Of a DNA stretch of 64,000 nucleotides, positions 1 to 13,868 are shown in pieces. A program made the position numbers and the translations under genes. The DNA is from Methylocystis sp. H62 (GTDB lineage: Bacteria > Pseudomonadota > Alphaproteobacteria > Rhizobiales > Beijerinckiaceae), in the NCBI RefSeq assembly GCF_015709515.1, contig NZ_JADNQZ010000057.1, positions 1 to 64,000 on the forward strand, read 5' to 3'. The notes beneath the pieces were generated by a model. It saw only the letters and a list, made by a program, of their open reading frames with translations. It ran no database searches and was not told the origin of the DNA. Within the stretch, counting starts at the first letter, position 1. Each line of letters opens with the position of its first letter.

Positions 1-438
1 CACGCCATTCATCAGAACGATTTCGTGGCTCCAATCGAACTGGTAAGCCTCGCCCGGCGCAAAGCTCAGCGGCACAAAGGCGCTCGTCGTCTCGCTGGCA
101 TGGTCTCGCGCCCAATTCCGCGCATAACGCCGCACCGCGTCATACCCGCCGTCATAGCCAAGCGCCCGCAACTCTTCGAACACACGGATCAACGTCAGCC
201 GCTCGCGCGCCGGCTTTGTTGCATTCTCCGCGAGCACTCGGTCGATCTCCGCCTTCCAGGCGCCGAGCTTGGGACGCGGCTGAATCTCCCGCTCGTAGGA
301 AAACGACGTCTCGCCTGATCGCAGAACCTTGCGAACCGTATTGCGCGATATCTTCAGATCACGGGCAATCTCCTTGATCGACTTGCCCTTCTGGAAATGC
401 TCCCGCCGAATCCGGCCAATCGTCTCCACAACAAGCAT
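1..438 (-). CDS. istA: IS21-family transposase IstA, N-terminal part (cut by window edge)
   Basis: The reverse strand reads open from an ATG at 438 to position 1 (146 codons) with no stop, so the gene runs out of the window. The translation begins MLVVETIGRIRREHFQKGKS and continues with a helix-turn-helix (KEIARDLKISRNTVRKVLR, about residues 21-39). After it comes the start of the DDE catalytic domain (FDWSHE, about residues 135-140), whose aspartate is the usual first catalytic residue of IstA. IstA performs strand cleavage and transfer for IS21 elements with the helper ATPase IstB, which would lie beyond the left edge. Terminal repeats lie just outside the start codon. Whether the element is intact cannot be judged. 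Confidence 0.85.
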   Translation of the reverse strand, partial: MLVVETIGRIRREHFQKGKSIKEIARDLKISRNTVRKVLRSGETSFSYEREIQPRPKLGAWKAEIDRVLAENATKPARERLTLIRVFEELRALGYDGGYDAVRRYARNWARDHASETTSAFVPLSFAPGEAYQFDWSHEIVLMNGV

Positions 439-490
439 CCCCCACCGCCCGCTCGATGCCAAAGCGGGCAGACCTGCAAACAGTTCAGAT

Positions 491-544
491 GGGGGTCAAT
501 TTTGGACGCCGATCCCCCGGCTTAGGGGGTCAAAATTGCACGCC
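491..544. repeat. IS21-type terminal repeats (element end near 540)
   Basis: Two 20-bp repeat units lie just outside istA at 491-510 and 525-544. On the reverse strand both read GGCGTnCAAnnTTGACCCCC, differing only in a few central bases. Multiple repeats at the ends and a 5'-TG terminus are typical of IS21-family elements. The outer end is placed at about 540 (reverse-strand TGCAATTTTGAC), but the exact base needs the other end of the element. Confidence 0.65.
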
Positions 545-629
545 TAAACACATCCGAACGCCAAGAGCGTCTAAGCGATAGTGGCTCTCTGCCCTCAAAT
601 GTTGATTTCAAACCGCACGAGAAAACGCA

Positions 630-1724
630 ATGAAGCGCCATCACGAGAACGAGCGAATGAAGCGCAACTATCTCGCCTTCTTGAAGGACGCGAAAGGGCG
701 CGACGAGGCGTCGATCGACGCGGTTGCGCAGTCGCTCGACGAGTTTGACGCATACAGTAGGTACCGCGATTTCCGCCGGTTCCACATTGAGCAAGCACGC
801 GGATACAAGGCTCGCCTTCTGGACGCAAAGAACGAACGCACCGGAAGGCCACTGGCTGCAGCGACTATCAAGAGCCGCCTTTCACATCTCAAGGCCTTCT
901 TCGAATGGCTCGCTCAAGAACCTGGATATAGGCGCTCTGTGAAGGCAGCCGACGCTGCATATTTCAATCCTGCTGAAAAGCTGGCGCGCGTCGCATCCGC
1001 TCGCAGGTTTAAACCGTTCCCCACCCTAGCGCAGGTCGAAATGGTCCTGCGTTCATTGCCGGCGGTCACCGAGATCGAAATGCGCGACAGGGCATTGATC
1101 GCTTTCACTATCCTGACTGGTGCCCGGGACGGGGCGATCGTGACGCTCCGCTTAAAGCATGTCGATGTTTCGGCCGCGCTCGTCCATCAGGACGGCCGAG
1201 ACGTGGACACGAAACTTTCCAAGTCATTCACAAGCTGGTTTTTCCCGCTCGACGAATTCATCGAAGGCATTGTCGTCGAATGGATTGCCTTCCTTCGGAA
1301 ACGGGGGTTCGGACCGTCGGACCCGATCTTTCCCAAGACGCGCGTTATCGCTGATCCGGAAAGCGGATTTCGAGTCGCGGGCCTCGACCGAGCGCCTTGG
1401 GCGAATGCCGGGCCGATGCGCGCGATTTTCAAGCGATCCTTCGAGGCCGTTAGTCTTCCGTACTTCCACCCGCACCTCTTTCGGAAAACGATCATGCAGG
1501 TTGCCTATGACCGCAAACTCGACCTGGAGGCATTGAAGGCCTGGTCACAGAATCTCGGACACGAAGACATCGTAACCACAGTTTCAAGCTACGGGACGAT
1601 TTCCCCGGAGCGGCAACGCGAATTGGTCCGCAACCGTTTGTCCGCTGCCGAGATCGGGGGCGACCTCAAGCGTCTTCTGCAATTGGCGTTGGCAAAGGTC
1701 GATGGACCGCCGCAATCCGCATAG
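630..1724 (+). CDS. Tyrosine recombinase / site-specific integrase
   Basis: A 364-residue protein with the full catalytic set of tyrosine recombinases: first arginine in [16 protein letters not shown] (R166), the HLFRKT box (H282, R285), second histidine in LGHEDIVTT (H311) and the nucleophile in SSYG (Y321). The N-terminal 100 residues look like a core-binding SAM-like domain. It would cut and rejoin DNA at short core sites through a phosphotyrosine intermediate. ATG 630 was kept; ATG 657 is also possible. It sits just inside the IS21 end and 62 bp before a serine recombinase, at the opposite side of the defence operon from the P4-type integrase. Its substrate site is unknown. It does not belong to the P4/DUF4102 type. 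Confidence 0.85.
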
Positions 1725-1786: not shown

Positions 1787-2479
1787 ATGAAATCGCTCGT
1801 GGCGTATATCCGGGTCAGCACGAACCAGCAGGGTCGGTCAGGGCTGGGCATTGAGGCACAACGGGACGCGCTCCTACGTTTCGCAGCTTCTGAACGGTTC
1901 GAAATCGTGTCCGAGTTCGTCGAAGTCGAGACCGGCAAGGGGGCAGATGCGCTCGACCGGCGCCCCGAACTTGCCGCCGCGCTCGCGAAGGCACGTACTC
2001 TGCGGTGCTCTGTGGTGGTCGCCAAACTCGACAGATTGTCGCGCGACGTGCACTTCATCTCCGGCCTAATGACGCATCGGATACCGTTCGTCGTCGCGGA
2101 ATTGGGACCTGATGTCGACTCGTTCGTCCTGCATCTTTATGCCGCGTTGGCGGAGAAAGAGCGCGCCCTGATCTCGTCCCGCACCAAGGCGGCCCTGGCC
2201 GCCGCAAAGTCACGTGGCACCAAACTCGGTAATCCGGAACTTGCGACCGCCCGTCGGGCCGCTGTTGCTTCAATCAAGGCGGACGCAGATCGCGCCGCCG
2301 CCAACGTGCTCCCGATTGTCGAGGAAATTCGCAGCTCCGGAGCGACCACGCTTCGTCAGATCGCGGACGCGATGAACGCACGCGGAATTCCGACCTCGCG
2401 CGGCGGAAAGTGGCACCCCATGACAGTTCGCAACGCATTGAACCGCGATGTTGCTTCGTCTCAGATTGGCCTACCATGA
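1787..2479 (+). CDS. Serine recombinase (resolvase family)
   Basis: A 230-residue protein starting [20 protein letters not shown]. Ser11 in YIRVST is the expected nucleophile. The resolvase signature continues with AKLDRLSRD and with [22 protein letters not shown], the long E helix. The C-terminal part ([20 protein letters not shown]) resembles the short DNA-binding tail of recombinases that act on linear or transposon sites. The family catalyses DNA cleavage through a 5'-phosphoserine. The upstream palindrome at 1751-1769 may be its site. It follows the tyrosine recombinase in the same direction and precedes the defence operon, so it likely belongs to the mobility module of the island. Confidence 0.88.
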
Positions 2480-2721: not shown

Positions 2722-5700
2722 ATGAGTATTCCGACCATTTTTGATACCTGCCGCCCTCGTCAGGACGTCCTGGACGGCACGATTTCAGACAGCGACTTTG
2801 CAGCGAACCTTTCGCGCGTCCTGCGCGGCGACGCCACGGACGACTACAAGAAGCCGTCACAGTTCTTCGCCAACACCTATCCCACCGAGGGCCTCAAGGA
2901 ACTCCTGAAGAACGTCTGCAAACGTCTGTCCGGCAGTGGACAAGCGATTTCCGCGGTCTTCCGACTCGACACGTCCTTCGGCGGCGGCAAAACGCACGGC
3001 TTAATCGCGCTCGTGCACGCAGCCCGTGGCATGGTCGACGTCGCAAACGTAGCGGAATTCGTCGACCCTGTTCTCATTCCGAAAGGTCACGTTCGGATCG
3101 CCGCCTTTGACGGTGAAAACGCTGACGCTGCAAACGGCCGTCCGATGGGCGACGGAATCCGCGCCTTCACCCCCTGGGGCGAAATCGCCTACCAGCTCGC
3201 GGGCAAGGCCGGCTACGAGATCGTTCGGCGCTCGGACGAAGAAAAAATTGCGCCTGGCACCGATACGATTCGCGAGTTGTTCGGCTCCGACCCCATCCTG
3301 ATCGTGTTGGACGAGCTCGGCGAATACCTTCGCAAGGTCCAGCACATGGGCGGCCGTGACCAACTCACGGCCTTCATGAAGGCCCTGCTCACGGCGATCG
3401 AGTCCACGCCCAATGCCGCGGTCGTCTACACGCTTGCCGTCCGCCAGGACGGCAAAGGCATCGACGCCTTTGGCGAAGAAAACGAATTCATCTCAATTGC
3501 TATGCTTGAGCTTGAGAGCGTTTCGGGCCGCAAAGCGACCCATCTCAACCCGACAAAGGACGATGAGACCGCCAAGGTCATCAGGCGTCGCATCTTCGCG
3601 CACATCGACGATGCAGCGGCTGCGGTCGCTATCGAAGCCTACCGTTTGCTATGGGCCGACAATAAGAATGCCCTATCCGAGGCTGCACGCCGCACAAGCC
3701 TCGTCGAAGAATTCCGCGATACCTATCCGTTTCATCCCGACGTTCTCGAGACGCTGACGAGCAAGACCGCGACGCTCGGCAATTTCCAGCGCGTTCGCGG
3801 CATGTTGCGGATTCTCGCCAAGACCGTCCGTCACGTTTGGGCCAAGCCCCCAAAGGATGCCACAGCCATCCATCTCCACCACATCGACCCAGGTCAGGAA
3901 GACATACGGTCCGAATTCACCACTCGCCTTCAGCAATCGAACTACATTTCGGCGATCAAGGGCGATATCGCCACAATCGAGACCAAGCCCGCGCTCGCCC
4001 AGGAAATCGATGACAAGCATTACCGCGGCCTGCTGCCATACGCGACCTACGTCGCTCGGACGGCCTTTGTGCACACATTCGCATTCAATAACGATCTCAA
4101 GGGAATCGCGCCAGACCACCTTCGCGTCTCGATCCTGAGCCCGGCGGCCGACCTCAGCTTCATCGACGACGCGCGCCAGCGCTTCCGGCAAGATTCGGCC
4201 TATCTCGACGACCGGCCGAATGCGCCACTGCGCTTCAACGCCGAAGCCAACCTCACGCAGGTCATTTCGCGTGAGGAAAAGAACGTCGATCCGGAAACAT
4301 CCAGGATCGAGCTGCGCGACCGCATCAAGCAGATATTCGGCGGATCAATTTTCGATTTCGTACCGTTCGCTTCCGGCCCCTACGACGTTCCAGACGACAT
4401 CGGCGACGGCAAGCCGCGCCTAGTGCTGCTTTCGCACGACGCGATCGACGTCGGTCCGGACATTAAGGGGGTGCCTGACCTTGTTTCCAAGATTTACGAG
4501 CGCAAAGGCTCCGACGGCCAAGGCATTCGCTCGCTTCGCAACAACCTGGTTTTCGTACTCGCGGACGAACATCAGGTACCGAACATGAAGGCGAAAACGA
4601 CTCGCCGCCTGGCCCTCCGCGAGCTCAAACGCCCCGAGCGGCTTGCTGAACTAGCCGCTCACCAGCAGGAAGCAGTGCGTGTCGAGGAAGGACGAGCAGA
4701 ATCTGCCGTCGCCATCGCAATCCAGCATTGCTACCGACACGTCCTTTATCCATCCAAAATCGGCCTTGGCGACGGCTCGGTCCAGCTCGGGCATGCGGTC
4801 ATCGACCTGCAAAACGCGTCCGAAAAGCCTGGCGCAGGCCAACTACAGATCTTCCGCCAGCTACAGGAGCAGGGAAAGCTGCGCGACGCGTCCGACAATC
4901 CGGAATCGCCATCCTACATCCGCGATCGGACGCCCCTGAAGAAAGGCCAGATCAGTACGCGCGATCTGCGCGATGAATTCCGGAAGGATCCATCGCTCTC
5001 GATCCTGCTATCGGATGACGTCTTCCGAAAGCTCGTCCGAAAGGGCATCGAGGAGAACATTTACATCTATCAGCATGAAGGCTTGATCGCCGGTCAGGGC
5101 GATCCGATGCCGACCATCCAAATCGATGAACTCGGCAACCTGTTCACGATCGAATTCGCCAAGAACAAGGGGATCTGGCCGCGGCAGACAGCACAGCAGA
5201 CAACATTGGGGTCTGCACCGTCGACAAGCACTTCTGGTGCAGCCGTGGCCAAGGGCTTTTCCGAAGGATCCGGCGCAATTCTGACTGGAGACGCCGGCGG
5301 GCCTTCAACTCCGACCGCTACGGCGGCCGCTGGATCGCGCGTCTTCTCGGCCGAGGGCATCCTCAAAGAAGCCTTGGCTCAAGTTTTCGGCAAGGCCAGG
5401 TCGGCCGCGGTCGACAAGATCGACCGTGTCTCGATCAAGCTCTTCGAATTCGGCGATGCATTCAAACTCGTACCCGTCGTCGCCGGCGTCCAAGGCGCCA
5501 AGCGCAGCATCCAGATGGAAGGCGGCTACCAGACCGCTGAAGGCAGCACGATGGAGTTCAACTTCACCGGCTCGCCGAACGATGCGTCCGTCATGAAGAG
5601 CTACCTGGAACCGCAGTTCCGGGCGGCTGCCGAGACCGACCTGAAGACCCTCCTCGTCTTCGACTTCGAGCCTGCACTTCTGATGACCGCTGATGCGCCT

Positions 5701-5775
5701 GAAAAATTCATCGAAAAGCTCACGCGCTTTGCAAGCGCGGCGGCTCATGTCGAGGCGATCGCGGAGGTCAAGTAA
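2722..5775 (+). CDS. DUF499-family ATPase, putative anti-phage system component
   Basis: A 1017-residue P-loop ATPase. The Walker A box SFGGGKTH lies at residues 85-92 (K90) and Walker B ILIVLDELGE at about 192-201, with hydrophobic strands before both. The overall pattern matches the DUF499 family (COG1483), large predicted AAA+ ATPases usually found beside a DUF1156 DNA methylase (COG1743) in defence islands. A Gly/Ala/Ser/Thr-rich linker at about 830-880 joins the main body to a C-terminal domain. ATG 2722 follows AAGGG at a suitable distance. It is the first gene of the operon; its stop shares a base with the next possible ATG at 5775. Its role is presumably ATP-driven sensing or remodelling in anti-phage defence, which is inferred from neighbours, not from sequence. 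Confidence 0.85.
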   Translation: MSIPTIFDTCRPRQDVLDGTISDSDFAANLSRVLRGDATDDYKKPSQFFANTYPTEGLKELLKNVCKRLSGSGQAISAVFRLDTSFGGGKTHGLIALVHAARGMVDVANVAEFVDPVLIPKGHVRIAAFDGENADAANGRPMGDGIRAFTPWGEIAYQLAGKAGYEIVRRSDEEKIAPGTDTIRELFGSDPILIVLDELGEYLRKVQHMGGRDQLTAFMKALLTAIESTPNAAVVYTLAVRQDGKGIDAFGEENEFISIAMLELESVSGRKATHLNPTKDDETAKVIRRRIFAHIDDAAAAVAIEAYRLLWADNKNALSEAARRTSLVEEFRDTYPFHPDVLETLTSKTATLGNFQRVRGMLRILAKTVRHVWAKPPKDATAIHLHHIDPGQEDIRSEFTTRLQQSNYISAIKGDIATIETKPALAQEIDDKHYRGLLPYATYVARTAFVHTFAFNNDLKGIAPDHLRVSILSPAADLSFIDDARQRFRQDSAYLDDRPNAPLRFNAEANLTQVISREEKNVDPETSRIELRDRIKQIFGGSIFDFVPFASGPYDVPDDIGDGKPRLVLLSHDAIDVGPDIKGVPDLVSKIYERKGSDGQGIRSLRNNLVFVLADEHQVPNMKAKTTRRLALRELKRPERLAELAAHQQEAVRVEEGRAESAVAIAIQHCYRHVLYPSKIGLGDGSVQLGHAVIDLQNASEKPGAGQLQIFRQLQEQGKLRDASDNPESPSYIRDRTPLKKGQISTRDLRDEFRKDPSLSILLSDDVFRKLVRKGIEENIYIYQHEGLIAGQGDPMPTIQIDELGNLFTIEFAKNKGIWPRQTAQQTTLGSAPSTSTSGAAVAKGFSEGSGAILTGDAGGPSTPTATAAAGSRVFSAEGILKEALAQVFGKARSAAVDKIDRVSIKLFEFGDAFKLVPVVAGVQGAKRSIQMEGGYQTAEGSTMEFNFTGSPNDASVMKSYLEPQFRAAAETDLKTLLVFDFEPALLMTADAPEKFIEKLTRFASAAAHVEAIAEVK

Positions 5776-5804
5776 TGCGTGTTCTGCGTTTACAAGAGGA
5801 TTTC

Positions 5805-6257
5805 ATGGCAACGCCAAGAACCCTGCCCAAATATGAGCTTCGCGCGCGGCGCCATGGCCCCGGCGACACCGAACTCGAAATCTGGCAAATGCCGTCGGCA
5901 TCGACGCCCCAGATTTCGACGCCTCACCGCGTCGCCGGCCTACGCGGCCGGAATCTCGAGCTCGTCGAGAATCGCGTCCTCAAGCGCCTGAAGGCCGCCG
6001 GCATTCGGATCGACATACTGCCGATCGAAGGCATGGGCTCGTCGATTCCAGAGGAATCAGCCCTGCCCCTCGCGCTCCTGTTCCGCACTCTCGCGCCCAT
6101 GCGCAGCCGTGACGCCATGCGGCTCGTGTCCGAAGGCATTGACGAGATGAGCCGCGAAGAAGCCGCGTACTGGCTCGGCATGGCCGTCCATCGGCGTAAT
6201 CCGCGTCGCGTGCTCACCGCGCTTCGCGTCCTCTTGACGGATCCGAAACGCAAATGA
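5805..6257 (+). CDS. Small unidentified protein of the DUF499-DUF1156 operon
   Basis: A 150-residue protein starting MATPRTLPKYELRARRHGPG at ATG 5805, preceded by AAGAGG. An upstream ATG at 5775 would add ten residues (MRVLRLQEDF) and overlap the DUF499 stop by one base. The gene ends in ATGA, overlapping the methylase start by four bases, so translation is coupled. The protein is mixed alpha/beta by eye, with a beta-rich N-terminal half (YELRARRH, TELEIWQMP) and a helical C-terminal half (EEAAYWLGMAVHRRNPRRVLTALRVLL). No catalytic motif is visible. In related operons this slot often holds a DUF3780 protein, but I do not see a convincing match to that family. It could be an adaptor between ATPase and methylase. 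Confidence 0.75.
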   Translation: MATPRTLPKYELRARRHGPGDTELEIWQMPSASTPQISTPHRVAGLRGRNLELVENRVLKRLKAAGIRIDILPIEGMGSSIPEESALPLALLFRTLAPMRSRDAMRLVSEGIDEMSREEAAYWLGMAVHRRNPRRVLTALRVLLTDPKRK

Positions 6258-9181
6258 CCCAGGCATCAGATATATCCGACGTGCGCTTGATTGAGCGATG
6301 GATGCCAATCGCTGCGCTAGGCGAAGAAAGCTTGCGTGAGAGGCGGTCTCTGTCTGCCCTTCCGGCGGTTTACTACTTGCACACCTGGTGGGCTCGTCGC
6401 CCACTCGTCGCGTCGCGCGCAGCGATTCTCGCATCTCTGTTACCCACTAACGCAAACCGATCGTCTTTTATGCATTGTTTAGGTATCCACGGTGACCCCA
6501 TCGCCACTAAACGAGCAATTGACCGGGCGAAGCGGACTGGCGAGAATTTGGGCTCCAATCCATATGGTTACGATCGAGCGTTCAAGTATCAACCGACGGC
6601 CAAAGATCTAGCGTGGCTAAAACAATCCGCTCTTGGTTCCGTACTGCTGGACCCAACAGCTGGGGGCGGCAGCATTCCGTTCGAGGGGGTCCGACTCGGC
6701 CTGAATGTTTTCGCAAATGACCTCAATCCAGTTGCTGCGTTGATCGAAAAAGCGACTGTCGAATACCCATTTTTGTTCGGTTTGGAGGTGTTGTCAGAAT
6801 TTGACTCTTTATCGAAGCGCTTTCTTGAAATTGCAAATAAGCGCTTTGAGCATGTGTATCCGGCGGAAAAGCCGGACACGCAAGTGCTGGGGTATATTTG
6901 GAGCCGCACTGTCAAGTGCCCATACTGCGATGGCGTCGTCCCGCTTGCCCAAGCGTGGAAGCTCGCTGCCGATGGCACCGGGCTTCAAATATCCCCGATA
7001 TGTGGAACAGGACCTGGAGATTCTAAACGGAATTGCGAGTTTACGGTCGTCTCATCGGTCGCTGAGCAATCCCCCGCTACGATTGCCGACGGCGATGGCT
7101 TGTGCCCATTTCCAGACTGCAATCGTCCGATCGGCGGTGATCACATCAAGAAAGAGGCGCAATCGGGCCGTATGGGCGACAAGCTTGTGGCCATCGCATA
7201 TCGATTTCGTACCCGCTCCAAAGGCAAGAATGGAAGACCTAAGTGGGAGCGGGGGTATCGCGCCGCATCTGCAGTCGATGACAATCAGGCACACGTTCGA
7301 AATGTGCTTTCCGAACTTGCAGACGAGTGGACAGCTCTCGACATCATTCCCAACGAAGAAATTGGGGTTCCGTCAAATTACGATCGCGGCCATCGTCTCT
7401 ATGGGATGAAGGCGTGGCGGGATCTGTTCTCTCCTCGTCAGCTTCTTTGTCACGGATTAGGCGTTCAAATTTTTCGCGAGCTTCTTGGCGAGTATCAAGG
7501 CGGCTCAACCACGGATGTAGTGAGGGCGGCCTTCGTCTATCTGGCCATGAGCCTCGATAAACTTACCGTATATAACGCGAGATCTTCGTTTTGGGATGCA
7601 ACGACCGGCAGAATTCGGCAGGTCTTTTCAAATCACAATTATTCTATGACATGGACGTATGCAGAATTCGCTGGGGCGCGTACAGGCGCGGGGTTCGAGT
7701 GGGTGCTCGGCCAAACGCAGAGCGCCTTAAAAGAATTAATCTCCATCACCCAACATGATCCGGCTTCGTCTGATCTGTTCGCTTCACTCAAAACTCCGCC
7801 GGTCAAAACGGCATTAACGCTCAGCTGCGAGTCGGGTGAATCATTGGGACATATTCCTGACGGATCTATCGATATCGTGGTGATGGATCCACCCTATTAT
7901 GACAATGTAATGTATGCTGAACTTTCTGATTTTTTCTATGTCTGGCTCAAGAGAACAGCCGCGCTCGTCGTCCCCGAACTTTTCACAAGAAGCCTCACCG
8001 ACAAGGAGAGGGAGGCAGTTGCGAACCCCGCGAAATTTAATGATGGCAGCGGAGCCCGTTCGAAAGCCGGACGCGACTATCAAGATCGCATGCAACGCAT
8101 TTTTGAGGAATGTCGTCGCGTCCTAAGTGAAGGCGGAATTATGACCCTTATGTTTACTCATAAGGCAACGGGCGCTTGGGACGCTCTTACGAAAGGGCTG
8201 ATGGAAGCAGGTTTCACGATCACTGCGTCTTGGCCAATAAGCACCGAGGCGGAGTCTTCGCTCCACATCAGGAACAAAGCTGCTGCAAACTCGACAATTT
8301 TCCTGACCTGCAGGCCTCGTTTGAAGCAATCCTCCGACTTCGCGTATTGGGAAGATGTCGAACCGCTGCTGTCAAAAGCAGTTCGAACCAGAATTTCGGA
8401 ATTTCAAGAAGCTGGAGTCGCCGGCGTCGATCTCTACCTGGCAAGCTTTGGCCCTGCCCTTGAAGAATTTTCTAAGCATTGGCCTCTCAAGCGAGGTACA
8501 CCGCGGCCTGAACCGCTTGCGAAGCGTCGTCGTAAACAAGCTGAAATGTTCGAAGAACCATTCGACCCTTACGCCGTGACTCCAGAAGACGCGCTTGAAG
8601 CGGCGCGCCGCGAAGTCAAGACCTGGCGACTCAATCAATTGACGCACCTGCGAGGAAAAGAGGATCTCGACTCGGCCACGTCGTTTTACGTCTTGGCATG
8701 GGACGCGTTTAAAGCCCCAGTTTTTGCCTACGATGAAGGCCTTCGTTTGGCACGCGCGGTTGGCGCAGACTTGGATCAGTTGATCGGACGCATTTGTGAA
8801 AAGAAGGGCTCAGACATCAAACTTTGGGACAGCAAGACCCGTTCAGAAAAAGGGTCGCTTGGCGCAGGCGACGGGACTCGCGGCATGATCGATGCGCTTC
8901 AATACGCAGCGCATCGCGGCCGGACTCGCTCAATCGAAGCTGCGCGCGAGTTCATCAAAGACGCCGGAATGACTGATGATCCGGCATTTATGAACGCGCT
9001 CGAAGCAATCCTCGAAGTCTTGCCGCCGTCGAGCACGTTCACGCAAATTGAGCTCTCGGGCGACCTCAAGAATGCCAGCGATGACTTCGACGCGCTCGAA
9101 AAGCTTCGGCGCCTCGCATTCGCCGATCGTGTCGACGAACCGCAACAGCTTAAGCTGTGGCAGGAAGAGCCCGTCGCGTGA
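6254..9181 (+). CDS. DUF1156 adenine-specific DNA methyltransferase
   Basis: A 975-residue protein. The N-terminus (IERWMPIAALGEESLRER, then YYLHTWWARRPLVASRAAIL) is the DUF1156 domain. The SAM-binding motif I region is LDPTAGGGSIPFEG (about 132-145). A cysteine-rich zinc-ribbon-like insert begins KCPYCDG (C222, C225) and continues with ICGTGPG, RNCEF and LCPFPDC. The catalytic motif IV is MDPPYYDN (D545), of the N6-adenine methylase type, and the helicase-side tail follows. The family is COG1743. It probably marks self DNA, letting the partner helicase and ATPase act on unmodified phage DNA. Its start overlaps the upstream stop by four bases. By eye, roughly 6,300-8,500 is clearly lower in GC than the ATPase and helicase genes, suggesting a separate history. 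Confidence 0.9.
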   Translation: MTQASDISDVRLIERWMPIAALGEESLRERRSLSALPAVYYLHTWWARRPLVASRAAILASLLPTNANRSSFMHCLGIHGDPIATKRAIDRAKRTGENLGSNPYGYDRAFKYQPTAKDLAWLKQSALGSVLLDPTAGGGSIPFEGVRLGLNVFANDLNPVAALIEKATVEYPFLFGLEVLSEFDSLSKRFLEIANKRFEHVYPAEKPDTQVLGYIWSRTVKCPYCDGVVPLAQAWKLAADGTGLQISPICGTGPGDSKRNCEFTVVSSVAEQSPATIADGDGLCPFPDCNRPIGGDHIKKEAQSGRMGDKLVAIAYRFRTRSKGKNGRPKWERGYRAASAVDDNQAHVRNVLSELADEWTALDIIPNEEIGVPSNYDRGHRLYGMKAWRDLFSPRQLLCHGLGVQIFRELLGEYQGGSTTDVVRAAFVYLAMSLDKLTVYNARSSFWDATTGRIRQVFSNHNYSMTWTYAEFAGARTGAGFEWVLGQTQSALKELISITQHDPASSDLFASLKTPPVKTALTLSCESGESLGHIPDGSIDIVVMDPPYYDNVMYAELSDFFYVWLKRTAALVVPELFTRSLTDKEREAVANPAKFNDGSGARSKAGRDYQDRMQRIFEECRRVLSEGGIMTLMFTHKATGAWDALTKGLMEAGFTITASWPISTEAESSLHIRNKAAANSTIFLTCRPRLKQSSDFAYWEDVEPLLSKAVRTRISEFQEAGVAGVDLYLASFGPALEEFSKHWPLKRGTPRPEPLAKRRRKQAEMFEEPFDPYAVTPEDALEAARREVKTWRLNQLTHLRGKEDLDSATSFYVLAWDAFKAPVFAYDEGLRLARAVGADLDQLIGRICEKKGSDIKLWDSKTRSEKGSLGAGDGTRGMIDALQYAAHRGRTRSIEAAREFIKDAGMTDDPAFMNALEAILEVLPPSSTFTQIELSGDLKNASDDFDALEKLRRLAFADRVDEPQQLKLWQEEPVA

Positions 9182-12100
9182 GCCTGCTTCAGGATCATGT
9201 CTGGAAGCTGAAATACACGCTGGATGACGGCGACCTCATCCGGCTTTTCTATGTCCCTGCCCTGCGGTCCGCTCAACGCTACGACAGGATCACCGGCTAT
9301 TTTTCGGCGACGGCCCTCGCCTTGGCGGCCCGTGGCGTCGAAGGCCTCGTCCTCAACGACGGCAGGATGCGCCTGCTCGTCGGCTGCACTCTCGGCGCCG
9401 AAGAAATCGAGGCAGTCGAAAAAGGCGAAGCAATTCGCGCCGTGATCGAGCGTCAGATTCTGGCAACGCCAGACTTCTTCGCCGATCCCAAGAGCATCGA
9501 CGCACTTCAGCTGCTTGCCTGGATGATCGCTCGCGGCTACCTCGATCTGAAGGTCGCCATCCCCTGCGACCTCAATCGTCGGCCCGTCCGAAATGGCGCG
9601 ATCTTTCACGAGAAGACCGGAATCATCGAGGACAAGACCGGGGACAGGATCGCCTTCACCGGCAGCATCAATGAAACTGCCGCCGGCTGGATGACGAACT
9701 GGGAAAGCTTCAACTGCTTCACGTCCTGGAATGACGGTCCCCGCGTCGAGCAAGAAGAAGGCAGCTTCGCCAAACTCTGGGCGGACAAAGCCACCCGCGC
9801 GATGGTGTTCGATGTCCCGACGGCCGTCCGCGAAAAGCTTCTCGGGTTCCTGCCTGATCCAGACAAGACGCCGCTTCTTCTGCAACAAGCGGAAGGCAAT
9901 CATACTTTAACGCCGACAATCCTCCTGCCAAGCCTTGCCGATGAGGCGGAGGCTGGCAGAACGCCCATCGACGAGGAGCGGTCCGAACTCTGGCGTCGGA
10001 TTGCAAACGCTGCGCAAAGCCCCAACGGCGGCGAACGTGTCGGCGAAGCCACGTCGGCAGTCGTGCCATGGGCTCATCAGGTCCGCGCCTTTCAACGCCT
10101 CTATCAAAACTGGCCCCCGAAGCTGCTGATCGCTGACGAAGTCGGCCTCGGCAAGACGATCCAGGCAGGCCTGCTCCTAAGGCAGGCTTGGCTCGCGGAT
10201 CGTATAAAGCGCGCACTCGTCCTGGCGCCAAAATCCGTCTGCAAGCAGTGGCAGATCGAACTTCGCGAAAAATTCAATCTGAACTGGCCGATCTACGACG
10301 GCCACAAGCTGATCTGGTACCACTCGCCCGCGACCGATCACTGCACAATCAAGTTCGTTACTCGCGCCGATTGGCATCGCGAACCGTTCGTGATCATGTC
10401 GAGCCACCTGGCGCGGCGGCAGGACCGGCGCCCAGAGCTGTTGACCGACGCCGGGCCTTGGGGCCTCGTCGTGCTCGACGAAGCCCATCATGCCCGCCGG
10501 CGGGGCGCAGGCACGGCCCAAGAAAGCGGACCGAACGCGCTCCTGCGCCTGATGCGGGAACTTCGTCACCGCACCGAAGGGCTTGTCCTGCTAACTGCAA
10601 CGCCCCTTCAGGTTCACCCGGTCGAACTCTGGGATCTGCTCGACTTGCTCGGTTTACCCGCCGAATGGACGCCCTCGGCCTTCGAGCGCTTCTTCGTCGA
10701 GGTCCGAAAAGAAACCATAACGAACGAGTCGCTGGACTGGCTTGCGGGCTTGTTCCGCGCGACCGAGCGTGTCTATGGGCAAATCTCGCGCGAAGAAGCC
10801 GAAAAACGCAGTAAGCTCAGCCGCTTCCAAGCTAAACGCGTGCTCGACGGCCTTCGCGAGGATTCTTCTATTCCGCGCCGCCAGTTCACGCCCGAGCAAC
10901 GGCGGGGCGCGATCGCGCTGATCCGACGGACAACGCCAGTCAGGACGCTGATCTCGCGCCACACGCGCGAACTGCTGCGCAAAATGGTTCAAGCCGGCAA
11001 GATCGATGCGCGCATCGCGAACCGCCGGGTCGAAGACAAATTCATCCATCTGTCGCCCGAAGAAAGCGCCCTCTACACCAAGGTCGAGAATTATATCTCG
11101 CACGCCTATAACGCGGCTGCTCAGGAACAGCGAAACGCCGTGGGCTTCGTCATGACGATCTACAGACGTCGCCTCGCGTCCAGCTTCTTTGCGCTGCGTA
11201 ACACCCTCGAAAAGCGCAAATCGGGCGTCACCTCCGGTTCGTCGCCTGAGGATGAATTGCGCCTTGAGGAAGACGCCGCCGATCTCGGCGAGGCCGGCGA
11301 CGATATCGATACCGACGCGCTGTCCGAGGCGGAGCGCCAAGCGCTCAATGCCGAGGAAGTCGCGACCATCGACGATCTCGTCGCTGAAATCGGGACGCTG
11401 CCGACCGACACCAAGGCCATCCAGCTGGTCGGCGTCCTCGCCGAACTTCAGGCCGCTGGCTTCCCACAGGCTATGGTATTCACCCAGTTCACCGACACGA
11501 TGGACTATCTGCGCGACCATCTCGCCAAAACAACGGGGCGCTCCATCATGTGCTTCTCGGGTCGTGGCGGCGAAGTCCGGGGCAATGACGGCGCTTGGAA
11601 AACCATCACGCGCGAAGACGTGAAGCGCCGGTTCCGGGAAGGAAAAGCCGACATTCTCGTCTGCACTGACGCCGCCGCGGAAGGATTGAATTTTCAGTTC
11701 TGCGGTGCCCTAGTAAATTACGACATGCCTTGGAATCCAATGCGCGTTGAACAACGCATCGGGCGAATAGATCGCCTTGGTCAGCGGTTTACGGATATTC
11801 GGATCGTCAACCTTCACTATGCCGACACCGTCGAAGCCGACGTCTACATGGCGGCACGCAACCGCATTAAGCTGTTCGAGAGCGTCGTCGGCGGCCTGCA
11901 ACCAATTCTCGCCCGCCTGCCGACCCTCATTAAGGCCACCGTGCTGAGCGCAGGTACTGAGCCGGGCCGTACGGAAGGCGCCGTACGCGACATTAACGCT
12001 GCGATCGACGTCGGCCAGGCCGAAGGCATTAACCTCGACGACTTCGCCGACGCCGACCTTGAAATGCCTGTCCGCCCGGAGCCTGCAATCACGCTCGCGG

Positions 12101-12315
12101 ACCTCCGCGCCATCCTTGACCGTCCGATCTTGTTGCCGAAGGGAACCGACGCTGCGCGCTTGGACGCGAAGGATTACCGGTACGAAAACGGCATTCTGCC
12201 AAAACCGATCCGCGTCACAGTCGACCGCGATTTCTACGAAATGCACTCAGAAAGTGTAGAGTTCTGGACGCCTGGAAGCCCCGCGTTTCCTGACCTTTCT
12301 GCCTTCCGCGAGTGA
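9178..12315 (+). CDS. Phospholipase-D/SNF2-helicase fusion, putative anti-phage effector
   Basis: A 1045-residue fusion. The N-terminal part has one HKD-like phospholipase D motif, HEKTGIIED then GSINE (H144 to about residue 170), seen in nucleases and nucleic-acid-binding domains. Next is a full SNF2 motor: ADEVGLGKT (K326), VVLDEAHH (D434), LLTATPLQ, and the helicase C lobe with TDAAAEGLNFQF and QRIGRIDRLGQ (about 861-870). GTG 9178 overlaps the methylase stop (GTGA) and is the preferred start; an in-frame GTG at 9157 would add seven residues. The combination of PLD nuclease and SNF2 translocase beside DUF499 and DUF1156 is known from predicted anti-phage loci and resembles DISARM logic, where PLD and SNF2 proteins are separate. 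Confidence 0.88.
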   Translation: MSLLQDHVWKLKYTLDDGDLIRLFYVPALRSAQRYDRITGYFSATALALAARGVEGLVLNDGRMRLLVGCTLGAEEIEAVEKGEAIRAVIERQILATPDFFADPKSIDALQLLAWMIARGYLDLKVAIPCDLNRRPVRNGAIFHEKTGIIEDKTGDRIAFTGSINETAAGWMTNWESFNCFTSWNDGPRVEQEEGSFAKLWADKATRAMVFDVPTAVREKLLGFLPDPDKTPLLLQQAEGNHTLTPTILLPSLADEAEAGRTPIDEERSELWRRIANAAQSPNGGERVGEATSAVVPWAHQVRAFQRLYQNWPPKLLIADEVGLGKTIQAGLLLRQAWLADRIKRALVLAPKSVCKQWQIELREKFNLNWPIYDGHKLIWYHSPATDHCTIKFVTRADWHREPFVIMSSHLARRQDRRPELLTDAGPWGLVVLDEAHHARRRGAGTAQESGPNALLRLMRELRHRTEGLVLLTATPLQVHPVELWDLLDLLGLPAEWTPSAFERFFVEVRKETITNESLDWLAGLFRATERVYGQISREEAEKRSKLSRFQAKRVLDGLREDSSIPRRQFTPEQRRGAIALIRRTTPVRTLISRHTRELLRKMVQAGKIDARIANRRVEDKFIHLSPEESALYTKVENYISHAYNAAAQEQRNAVGFVMTIYRRRLASSFFALRNTLEKRKSGVTSGSSPEDELRLEEDAADLGEAGDDIDTDALSEAERQALNAEEVATIDDLVAEIGTLPTDTKAIQLVGVLAELQAAGFPQAMVFTQFTDTMDYLRDHLAKTTGRSIMCFSGRGGEVRGNDGAWKTITREDVKRRFREGKADILVCTDAAAEGLNFQFCGALVNYDMPWNPMRVEQRIGRIDRLGQRFTDIRIVNLHYADTVEADVYMAARNRIKLFESVVGGLQPILARLPTLIKATVLSAGTEPGRTEGAVRDINAAIDVGQAEGINLDDFADADLEMPVRPEPAITLADLRAILDRPILLPKGTDAARLDAKDYRYENGILPKPIRVTVDRDFYEMHSESVEFWTPGSPAFPDLSAFRE

Positions 12316-12428: not shown

Positions 12429-13619
12429 TTATTGGTTCCGAATTTCATCGAGCAAGTTCGCCCAATGGTCCATCAAACGGATGCGCTCGTCCCAAAATTC
12501 AGCGCGCGCGTAGGCGCGACGAATGGAATTCCTTTCGACGTGCGCCAACTGCGCTTCAATAGCGTCGGCGTTCCATTTTCCGCTTTCATTCAGGATCGAA
12601 GAAGCTGCGGCTCTGAAGCCGTGCGCGGTCATTTCATCCTTGGAATACCCCAAGCGACGCAAAGCGGCATTGAGAGTATTTTCCGACAATGGACGTTTGG
12701 GATCGCGAGCACCGGGAAACACGAGCGTCCGATTGCCGCTGATCTTACGAACCTCACTCAACAAATCGAGCGTCTGCCGCGACAGCGGCACACGGTGCGG
12801 TCGCCGCATCTTCATTCTCTTGCCCGGAATCGTCCAGACCGATGCGACGAGGTCGAATTCCGTCCATTCGGCCATCCGCAGTTCGCCGGGGCGCGTGAAC
12901 GTGAGAGCCAGCAGCTGAAGCGCCATCCGGACCTCTGGGGCACCGGCATGGCCCTCTACGGCCCGCAGCAGCTCCCCTAACCCCTTCGGATCGATAATGG
13001 CAGCGCGGTGGGTGACTTGCGGCGTCGTCAGCGCTCCGCGCAATGCGCCCGTCGGATCGCCCTGCGCCCGACCAGTCGCGACTGCATAGCGAAACACTTC
13101 TCCGATGGTCGCCCGCATGCGGCGTGCGGTCTCCAGCCTCCCCCGGACCTCGACCTTGCGCAGAGTCGCTAGCACTTCCGGGGCGCAAATCTCTGCGATG
13201 GGACGGGGTCCAAGGTCCGGCAGCGCAAGGCCGATCAACCATTCGACCTTCGCCAGCGTGGCATCGGCCTTACCTTCGCGCCTTTTCTTATCCAGCAACT
13301 CTCGACTGATGGCCTCGAAGCTGTTGGCCTTCTGCGCTTCCGAGGCCAACTTTTCGGTCCGCTTGTTCTGGCTGGGATCGATCCCGTCGATCAAGAGTCG
13401 CTTGGCAGCGTCCCGCCGGTCTCGCGCGTCCTTCAAACCGATCGCAGCGTATGGGCCGATCGCGAGTTTTCGCTGCTTGCCCCCGAACCTGTAGGCGAGG
13501 TTCCAGAGCTTCGCCCCCGTCGGCTGCACCCAAAGCTGAAGACCGCCGCCATCAGATAGTTTGATCGTGCGACTCGGGTCCGGCTTCGCGCCCCGGATAG
13601 CGGTGTCAGACAGCGGCAT
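12429..13619 (-). CDS. P4-type integrase (DUF4102 family), tRNA-Leu associated
   Basis: A 396-residue tyrosine recombinase. The start was set at ATG 13619, because MPLSDTAIRGAKPD is the standard beginning of the DUF4102 arm-binding domain; the longer frame to 13688 adds an unlikely tail. Catalytic residues are R243 (FTRPGELRMAEW), H333 and R336 (AHGFRAAASS), H360 and Y370 (RRAYARAEFW). The conserved end DHWANLLDE matches P4/phage integrases that insert at tRNA 3' ends. The gene begins 165 bp downstream of tRNA-Leu(CAG) and points into the island, the standard arrangement. It converges on the helicase gene with a gap of 113 bp in which I see no other feature. It probably drove integration of the whole island. 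Confidence 0.93.
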   Translation of the reverse strand: MPLSDTAIRGAKPDPSRTIKLSDGGGLQLWVQPTGAKLWNLAYRFGGKQRKLAIGPYAAIGLKDARDRRDAAKRLLIDGIDPSQNKRTEKLASEAQKANSFEAISRELLDKKRREGKADATLAKVEWLIGLALPDLGPRPIAEICAPEVLATLRKVEVRGRLETARRMRATIGEVFRYAVATGRAQGDPTGALRGALTTPQVTHRAAIIDPKGLGELLRAVEGHAGAPEVRMALQLLALTFTRPGELRMAEWTEFDLVASVWTIPGKRMKMRRPHRVPLSRQTLDLLSEVRKISGNRTLVFPGARDPKRPLSENTLNAALRRLGYSKDEMTAHGFRAAASSILNESGKWNADAIEAQLAHVERNSIRRAYARAEFWDERIRLMDHWANLLDEIRNQ

Positions 13620-13748
13620 TTGTTGGCCTCGATGTTCGAGTAGACACTCGAAGCCAACATCAAGGCCAACAGGCAGGCCGGATGTCAACGGAGCTAACCG
13701 GATGCCTTCGGATCAAAACGCGTCGTAAGCACCTGTAATTTTAGGCCT

Positions 13749-13767: not shown

Positions 13768-13783
13768 TGGATAAGTAAGGAAA

Positions 13784-13868
13784 TGGTGCCCAGGAGAGGA
13801 CTCGAACCTCCACGGCTTTCACCACTGGTACCTGAAACCAGCGCGTCTACCAATTCCGCCACCTGGGC
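13784..13868 (-). tRNA. tRNA-Leu (anticodon CAG)
   Basis: The reverse strand gives an 85-nt cloverleaf. The acceptor stem is GCCCAGG paired with CCTGGGC and an encoded CCA. The D arm is GGCGGAATTGGTAGACGC. The anticodon stem CTGGT/ACCAG encloses loop TTCAGGT, so the anticodon is CAG, read as leucine. The variable arm is long, as expected for tRNA-Leu, and the T arm is GGTTCGAGTCC. The 3' end faces the integrase, so this tRNA is the probable attachment site of the island, and it remains intact. Confidence 0.96.

Follow-up and report, generated by a model that had tools for sequence, protein, structure and literature searches.

Operons centred on a DUF499 ATPase are described in PMC12839542 as BREX-related (BR) systems. 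They are counted there in 3592 taxa and divided into three types: Type 1, which is Hma; Type 2, with an HKD-helicase and DUF3780; and Type 3, with PglZ and iSTAND. Type 1 was named Hma in PMC8565338, and an earlier notice, of HEPN-DUF499, is found in PMC3710099. In 2020 an archaeal operon was described that combines DUF499 and a COG1743 methylase with an SNF2 helicase to which a PD-(D/E)XK or PLDc nuclease is fused (PMC7641849). According to PMC12839542, the homologous operons are treated as restriction-modification (RM)-like defence and antiphage activity is cited for the Type-1 helicase; as presented there, the choice of target by BR systems is inferred, not tested. The operon reported here occupies positions 2722-12315 of a 64,000-nucleotide stretch of Methylocystis sp. 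H62 (contig NZ_JADNQZ010000057.1, positions 1 to 64,000), referred to below as the window. Judged by its protein families, it belongs to the DUF499-centred BR kind, as part of a lineage in which DUF7680 stands where Type 2 has DUF3780.

The operon is confirmed as real, intact and conserved, and its arrangement recurs far above chance. Its four open reading frames (ORFs) are all on the + strand and lie at 2722-5775, 5775-6257, 6254-9181 and 9157-12315 in the ORF listing of the window. The overlapping or touching frames reported in a first-pass annotation are borne out: the ATPase and DUF7680 genes overlap by 1 nt (TAATG) and the DUF7680 and methylase genes by 4 nt (ATGA). The helicase ORF is open from GTG 9157, and GTG 9178, which gives a GTGA overlap with the methylase gene, is probably the start; the related loci L004 and L005 likewise have a 4-nt overlap here. 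A hidden Markov model (HMM) search of the kind that the first-pass annotation had proposed assigned all four proteins, DUF499 and DUF1156 among them.

The first gene (2722..5775, +) encodes a DUF499 AAA+ ATPase of 1017 aa (PF04465, E 1.7e-38, 132.5 bits against a Pfam cut-off of 23), with the Walker A motif GGGKT and the Walker B motif at the residues that had been named, K90 and D197. The second (5775..6257, +) encodes a 160-aa protein that had been left as unidentified; it is DUF7680 (PF24728, E 4.8e-44), the product of a recurrent core gene, and is called the slot protein below. The third (6254..9181, +) encodes a DUF1156 N6-type DNA methyltransferase of 975 aa (PF06634, E 3.7e-13, 49.8 bits against a Pfam cut-off of 24). 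DUF1156 is N-terminal, motif I (DPTAGGG) is at 133, pairs of Cys residues are at 222 and 284, DPPY is at 545 as previously read, and a recognition insert lies between motif I and DPPY; the Pfam match to N6_N4_Mtase, at 23.0 bits, is below the curated cut-off of 26.7. The fourth gene (9178..12315, +) encodes the expected phospholipase D (PLD, HKD) nuclease fused to an SNF2-type helicase, with the HKD and helicase motifs and Pfam matches to SNF2-rel_dom (E 1.9e-17, 63.7 bits) and Helicase_C (E 1.9e-19, 70.4 bits); its PLDc_2 match (E 7.5e-5, 23.0 bits) is below the curated cut-off of 27.

Motifs were counted in those proteins of the relatives that have at least 800 aa. The Walker A K is present in 80/80 ATPases and the Walker B D and E in 83/83, D-P-P-Y is kept in 71/71 methylases, and the H, K and D of HKD and the G, S and N of GSxN are invariant in 55/55 helicases of the DUF7680 lineage. 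With dS near saturation, the ratio of nonsynonymous to synonymous substitution (dN/dS) between the window and L015 is 0.10 for the ATPase, 0.07 for DUF7680 and 0.06 for the helicase; the values against L004 are 0.07, 0.15 and 0.16. The methylase is saturated in both comparisons.

The DUF499 ATPase, DUF1156 N6-type methylase and Swi2/Snf2 helicase of BR systems are thus all matched in the window by Pfam. Among these systems Type 2 (PMC12839542; NCBIfam NF042962-4, "anti-phage-associated") is the nearest. The window has its gene order, its N-terminal HKD/PLD domain on an SNF2 helicase, its DUF1156 methylase and DUF499 ATPase, and in the same slot a small protein with the same predicted order of elements. 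The difference is that Type 2 has a stand-alone DUF3780 where the window has DUF7680; a search of the host genome (G000, assembled in 59 contigs) with PF12635 (DUF3780) found nothing. On the NCBIfam Type-2 models the window scores 210, 209 and 356 bits against cut-offs of 1200, 1000 and 1100. The PADLOC Type-2 models of the three core proteins give 1502 (ATPase), 1451 (methylase) and 1421 bits (helicase) for the DUF3780 operon at L101 but 136, 145 and 246 bits for the window, whose best PADLOC models are HmaC for the ATPase (329 bits) and HmaB for the methylase (234 bits). The DUF7680 lineage is easily missed because the window operon falls far under the PADLOC and NCBIfam Type-2 models and the slot protein is annotated "hypothetical protein" in the plasmid records examined. 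It is best seen as a second lineage beside Type 2. The first-pass annotation had left it open whether a published name covers the four-gene form: the kind is named, as BR (PMC12839542), but no name for the DUF7680 form was found. The lineage was not found described in the literature searched, and DUF7680 is unnamed in that literature, most subscription papers being outside the search. The term DUF7680 occurs 0 times in the text of PMC12839542; its authors may have counted DUF7680 operons under one of their types. The archaeal operon of PMC7641849 has the same three core families, with a PLDc-fused helicase mentioned, and is described, in the part of that paper that concerns it, without mention of DUF7680 or of a fourth core gene; the archaeal operons may include haloarchaeal members of the DUF7680 lineage.

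The gene-neighbourhood survey that had been called for bears out the association of the slot protein with DUF499. Among 97 slot-protein loci the DUF499-to-slot distance is measurable in 92; it is at most 100 bp in 85 of these, at most 1 kb in 5, and larger in 2. All four genes were detected in 64/97 loci, and many of the others run into the end of a contig or locus. DUF7680 lies directly after DUF499 in both bacteria and haloarchaea. A tblastn search with DUF7680 gave 27 plasmid records, and the ten examined all have the order DUF499-DUF7680-DUF1156-helicase, with the slot protein annotated "hypothetical protein" in every one. The slot gene is directly 3' of DUF499 or a few bases away in 8/10; the exceptions are L007, with one additional gene between, and L012, with 8.6 kb between DUF499 and the slot. 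A genome scan gave 209 confirmed DUF7680 relatives, and the best 80 of the 209 include several proteobacterial classes, Acidobacteriota, Cyanobacteriota, Verrucomicrobiota and Planctomycetota. The form is nevertheless rare in whole-genome samples: PF24728 is matched in 3/385 genomes of the host's class, including the window's own, and one of the three matches is short and has no operon in the stretch examined. In G065 (C26:14164-14295; L003, L134) a short DUF7680-like match of 33.7 bits, covering 44/141 positions, lies outside an operon of this kind, with no DUF499, methylase or helicase in the surrounding 11 kb examined.

Additional genes interrupt many of these operons. The gap between DUF7680 and the methylase exceeds 1 kb in 40 of the 80 loci where it can be measured, and that between methylase and helicase in 14 of 65. 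Nine ORFs scanned from both gaps (L026, L028, L031, L037, L071 and L072 in the former, L025, L091 and L093 in the latter) gave OLD-like AAA_15, PIN, macro, DarT, DUF932, GmrSD_N, metallo-beta-lactamase fold, Schlafen AlbA_2 and TPR/AAA_16 matches, and toxin-antitoxin-like genes stand among the core genes in four of the ten plasmids, the cyanobacterial L006, L007, L008 and L012. To judge from these domains, the interior of the operon looks as if it were a slot for backup effectors. The window operon carries no inserted gene. The IMG/VR set holds 16 putative viral contigs that encode DUF3780 (L137-L152) and two that encode DUF7680 (L153-L154), and L153 has the entire four-gene operon. The DUF3780-type operon at L101:4765-8722, on a Stutzerimonas plasmid, has a Pycsar system and a cytosine methylase as its neighbours.

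In phylogenetic trees of the methylase and of the helicase, the DUF7680 operons are placed apart from the Hma and DUF3780 systems. All trees were quick and have long branches; proteins shorter than 800 aa were left out, as were L001-L003, L014 and L133, which are duplicates or fragments. The main DUF7680 group is represented by no more than 21 named loci in the reduced trees, and by 14 in their rooted version. The rooted trees, for which Type-3 BREX served as outgroup, leave out near-identical rows and unclassified DUF499 loci. The 109 rows of the unrooted ATPase tree, in which long branches meet, fall into 83 DUF7680-slot rows on one side of a branch (97, starred support) and 21 Hma plus 5 DUF3780-type rows on the other. 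Five loci first taken as unknown encode a diverged DUF7680 (HMM E 6e-23 to 2e-13; three were checked by Pfam). In the reduced trees the DUF7680 group has a support of 97 (starred) for the methylase (29 rows) and 82 for the helicase (27 rows); the corresponding values in the rooted trees are 92 and 78. The helicase tree joins the DUF7680 and DUF3780 systems at 100 (starred), and the approximately unbiased (AU) test rejects both alternatives (p 0.024 and 0.025); on these sequences the two sets of helicases share an ancestor. With Type-3 BREX as root, neither the ATPase nor the methylase tree gave a firm branching order for the three lineages.

The two slot proteins were also compared through their AlphaFold2 (AF2) models. 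The model of DUF7680 (51 sequences) has a predicted local distance difference test (pLDDT) score of 85.6 and that of the DUF3780 protein (15 sequences) one of 79.7. Both have the element order bbbabaaaa, that is, three strands, a helix, a strand and four helices. On the alignment of the two profiles the predicted elements agree at 0.81, compared with a best value of 0.58 over 114 shifts. With near relatives only, hhalign found nothing (probability 0.5%). With a more diverse set it gave a collinear alignment of 134 columns with a score of 24.3 and P 0.0066, at a probability of only 5.8%; when the window sequence served as master, the alignment scored 21.0 (P 0.019). One of 300 column shuffles reached 24.3 (with 24.7), the reversed profile scored 17.0, and 0/57 pieces of the other three proteins reached that score, the best being 19.6 against DUF7680 and 20.7 against DUF3780. 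The claim of kinship is made because both models have the same element order, sequence alone being weak, and the predicted structures make DUF7680 and DUF3780 probable remote homologues. At E <= 0.001, Foldseek found no match for DUF7680 in PDB or BFVD and none for DUF3780 in PDB, so neither fold yields a function. A reader role is suggested for DUF3780 in PMC12839542.

The N-terminal part of the methylase, here called the head (about codons 20-600, the rest being the C half), is exchanged as a block among relatives. DNA identity was measured in 300-base windows. In L020 and L022 the proteins are 0.974 (ATPase), 0.994 (DUF7680) and 0.971 (helicase) identical; their methylases are 0.94 identical in the first 50 residues, 0.32-0.70 in residues 51-550 and 0.86-1.00 thereafter. 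At the DNA level this pair is 0.84-0.98 identical outside the block and 0.48-0.67 within it (codons ~20-620). L005 (Aminobacter) and L018 (Pelagibacterium) are 0.89-0.99 identical outside and 0.52-0.70 within (codons ~20-540), with 0.85 at the block edge, and the haloarchaeal plasmids L106 and L096 are 0.90-1.00 identical outside and 0.60-0.82 in the head. In none of these three pairs does the ATPase, slot protein or helicase drop along with the head, and the pattern recurs in both alphaproteobacteria and haloarchaea. Divergence at synonymous sites (pS) in codons 61-580 is 0.81 for L020/L022 and 0.77 for L018/L005, against 0.32 in the C half of both; saturation in the head with a low value in the C half indicates replacement, and not selection on amino acids alone. 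Three further pairs lean the same way, with head and C-half pS of 0.82 and 0.36 (L019/L020), 0.80 and 0.54 (L004/L023) and 0.83 and 0.60 (L024/L025).

Heads and backbones are also found in discordant combinations. L004 and L005 are 0.93-1.00 identical in the DNA of the methylase and most of the helicase, but their ATPases are just 0.67-0.84 identical, and the ATPase of L005 matches L018 (0.89-0.97). One head is common at ~99% to two ATPase backbones that differ by 16-33%. Among 71 methylases there are 50 pairs with a C half at least 0.85 identical; the head is below 0.60 in 24 of these, 0.60-0.85 in 23 and at least 0.85 in 3. For 42/71 methylases, head and C half point to different nearest relatives. 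The block starts near codon 20, which puts DUF1156 inside it and not in the chassis; holding DUF1156, motif I, the Cys pairs and DPPY, it carries the catalytic core along with the recognition insert. Mosaics are seen in Hma and DUF3780 pairs as well, so head exchange may be a general BR property.

For the window itself head exchange is likely, by analogy with its relatives. Ten close relatives have mean identities to it of 0.32-0.53 at methylase positions 101-550 and 0.62-0.86 beyond; the part that matches the block is 6311..8053 (+), its ends being taken from the DNA profiles of relatives, where they vary by pair, and not from the window. The same ten relatives fall to 0.35-0.42 at ATPase residues ~801-900, a hypervariable stretch in the identity profile (5122-5421, +), and to as low as 0.47 in parts of the helicase. 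Several observations weigh against exchange, or against the head as the only determinant. Against its nearest relative, L015, the window methylase has a protein identity of 0.50 in the head and 0.78 in the C half, and because pS is high in all four genes (0.67-0.81) an exchange here is not separable from divergence. In L005/L021 saturation extends to both halves (pS 0.76 and 0.71), and no exchange is seen in L047/L060. The 50 pairs are not independent, many coming from one alphaproteobacterial group. Donors of heads were not found: for no pair among the 71 methylases does the identity of the heads exceed that of the C halves by more than 0.06. The mosaics in Hma and DUF3780 pairs are less clean, and the Hma pair L123/L124 has only two short dips. 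ATPase residues 801-900 and the low stretches of the helicase might add specificity, although in L020/L022 the ATPase stretch does not change with the head (0.94 and 0.92).

We consider it fairly probable that the operon is an RM-like anti-phage system of the DUF499-centred BR kind, DUF7680 lineage, in which the methylase is the sole specificity factor with a plug-in head and the rest is a chassis blind to specificity. The methylase would recognize a short DNA site and methylate a host adenine there as the mark of self. At an unmethylated site the methylase, DUF499 ATPase and DUF7680 would act together as a surveillance complex and load the SNF2 motor, and the PLD domain of the loaded helicase would cut or block the foreign DNA. 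The head (~codons 20-600), as the plug-in module, would alone set the site for both marking and attack, and the chassis would comprise the C-terminal half of the methylase, the ATPase, DUF7680 and the helicase, with the constant C half as a candidate docking surface. The ATPase, DUF7680 and helicase stay near identical while the head changes, which makes them unlikely to read the site themselves, and a single exchange of the head would shift the marked and the attacked site together. The wider proposition has an even chance of being right, namely that this is an undescribed BR lineage of several bacterial phyla and haloarchaea, that a head exchanged whole alone sets both self mark and target, and that DUF7680 and DUF3780 make up one chassis superfamily whose fold has no solved relative by Foldseek.

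The strongest competing explanation, which is possible but less likely than not, is that the window encodes a divergent Type-2 system and that DUF7680 is DUF3780 under another Pfam name, the two being separated by divergence alone. The shared gene order and PLD-helicase, the shared order of predicted elements and the joined helicases with their AU result all agree with it. So does the rooted ATPase tree, which joins the DUF7680 and DUF3780 groups (78, not starred) and in which the DUF7680 rows do not form one group; a single DUF7680 clade is nevertheless not rejected (AU p 0.32). Set against a mere difference of name are the very long branches between the two groups in the methylase and helicase trees, the gap between 1421-1502 and 136-246 bits on the PADLOC models, and a sequence similarity between the slot proteins that is marginal or absent. 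With query and target exchanged, the hhalign score of the slot proteins is only 19.8, under the decoy value of 20.7. That low head identity reflects fast evolution of a target-recognition domain, with no exchange of blocks, is improbable. Such domains do diverge fast (PMC12839542), and the missing donor heads would fit; but synonymous sites are saturated in the head and not in the C half (L020/L022, L018/L005), the drop starts near codon 20 and stops near codon 540 or 620, it spans the catalytic core beyond the insert, and a nearly identical head sits on two distinct ATPase backbones.

Anti-phage activity of the window operon is itself suggested by analogy with its relatives, and the setting, with an integrase and tRNA-Leu in the window and plasmids in other loci, is mobile. 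The operon could accordingly be not, or not only, antiviral, guarding the island or plasmid that carries it from other mobile DNA or acting as an addictive maintenance system, in which a methylase paired with an attacking helicase-nuclease could make loss of the operon lethal to the cell. We regard this as unlikely: protection of an island is compatible with phage defence, and the core genes are homologous to those of systems with reported antiphage activity (PMC12839542). The first-pass annotation had proposed a modify-and-attack scheme related in logic to DISARM. The scheme is retained, and a likeness in logic is possible, but the DUF499-centred BR systems, Type 2 above all, are nearer. A place in the DISARM family itself is hardly credible. 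The helicase cross-matches DrmD with up to 216 bits in PADLOC and 270 bits in NCBIfam, where the cut-off is 610, and the ATPase is DUF499; membership is rejected because none of the seven proteins scanned from the operon and its surroundings is of the DUF1998, DrmA or DrmB type.

The operon is flanked by recombinase genes. Upstream are a XerC-like tyrosine recombinase (630..1724, +; Phage_integrase E 1.8e-8, TIGR02224 under cut-off) and a serine recombinase of the resolvase family (1787..2479, +; Resolvase E 1.6e-24). Downstream, a tyrosine integrase of the Arm-DNA-bind_3 (P4-like) type (12429..13688, -; Arm-DNA-bind_3, Phage_int_M and Phage_integrase matches) adjoins tRNA-Leu(CAG) (13784..13868, -; ARAGORN). 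The putative right attachment repeat is formed by the 3' end of this tRNA gene (13784-13800). When the first 16 kb of the window are compared with a 19-kb stretch of G547, another genome of the genus, the match begins at 13783, at the 3' end of the tRNA gene, and extends rightwards only; G547 has no DUF499 match. Window positions 1-552 are identical to L164:9589-10140, the last 552 bases of contig C56 of the host genome, which suggests that the two contigs are neighbours. C56 ends in an IS21-like element, identified from its ORFs, and the window's contig begins inside one. A 17-bp copy of the tRNA end lies on C56, 4.2 kb before the contig end, and if the contigs adjoin the island is ~17.4 kb. 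Its left end is only putative because the flanking DNA on C56 does not match the 19-kb G547 stretch.

Target choice in BR systems can be put to a direct test with the natural pairs that combine one chassis with different heads. Should the head prove to determine the methylation motif as well as the restricted sites, the methylase would be the sole specificity factor, and such a system could switch its target in one recombination without damage to itself. DUF7680 and DUF3780, two families of unknown function, may moreover be united in one fold.

The remaining described systems are more distant. Hma (Type 1) has a DUF499 ATPase and a DUF1156 methylase homologous to those of the window, HmaB being called an m5C (5-methylcytosine) methylase in PMC8565338. 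The order in Hma is helicase-methylase-ATPase, in contrast to ATPase-DUF7680-methylase-helicase in the window, and the Hma helicase that was scanned (L099) has a C-terminal NOV_C domain and no PLD, unlike that of the window. Gene order and helicase architecture rule out membership in Type 1; loci sorted as Hma have no DUF7680 or DUF3780 match by construction of the sorting. The components of Type-3 BREX (BrxC, PglXI, BrxHII, PglZ) are matched distantly by the window cores (BrxC 19, PglXI 61 and BrxHII 179 bits in PADLOC), and membership in Type 3 is ruled out by the host genome, in whose 59 contigs PF08665 (PglZ) has 0 matches. The restriction-like system Gao_RL is probably the DUF3780 form under another name. 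The name Gao_RL is listed in PMC12278908. In BREX, PglX contributes motif recognition in both defence and host methylation (PMC11341690). PglX is thus a specificity factor, and the methylase is proposed for the same role in the DUF7680 operons. Type I R-M systems exchange HsdS and Type III systems exchange the target recognition part of Mod, so that specificity changes by a swapped module on a constant chassis. The exchange in the DUF7680 lineage differs in extent, as its block takes in the catalytic methylase core together with the recognition insert.

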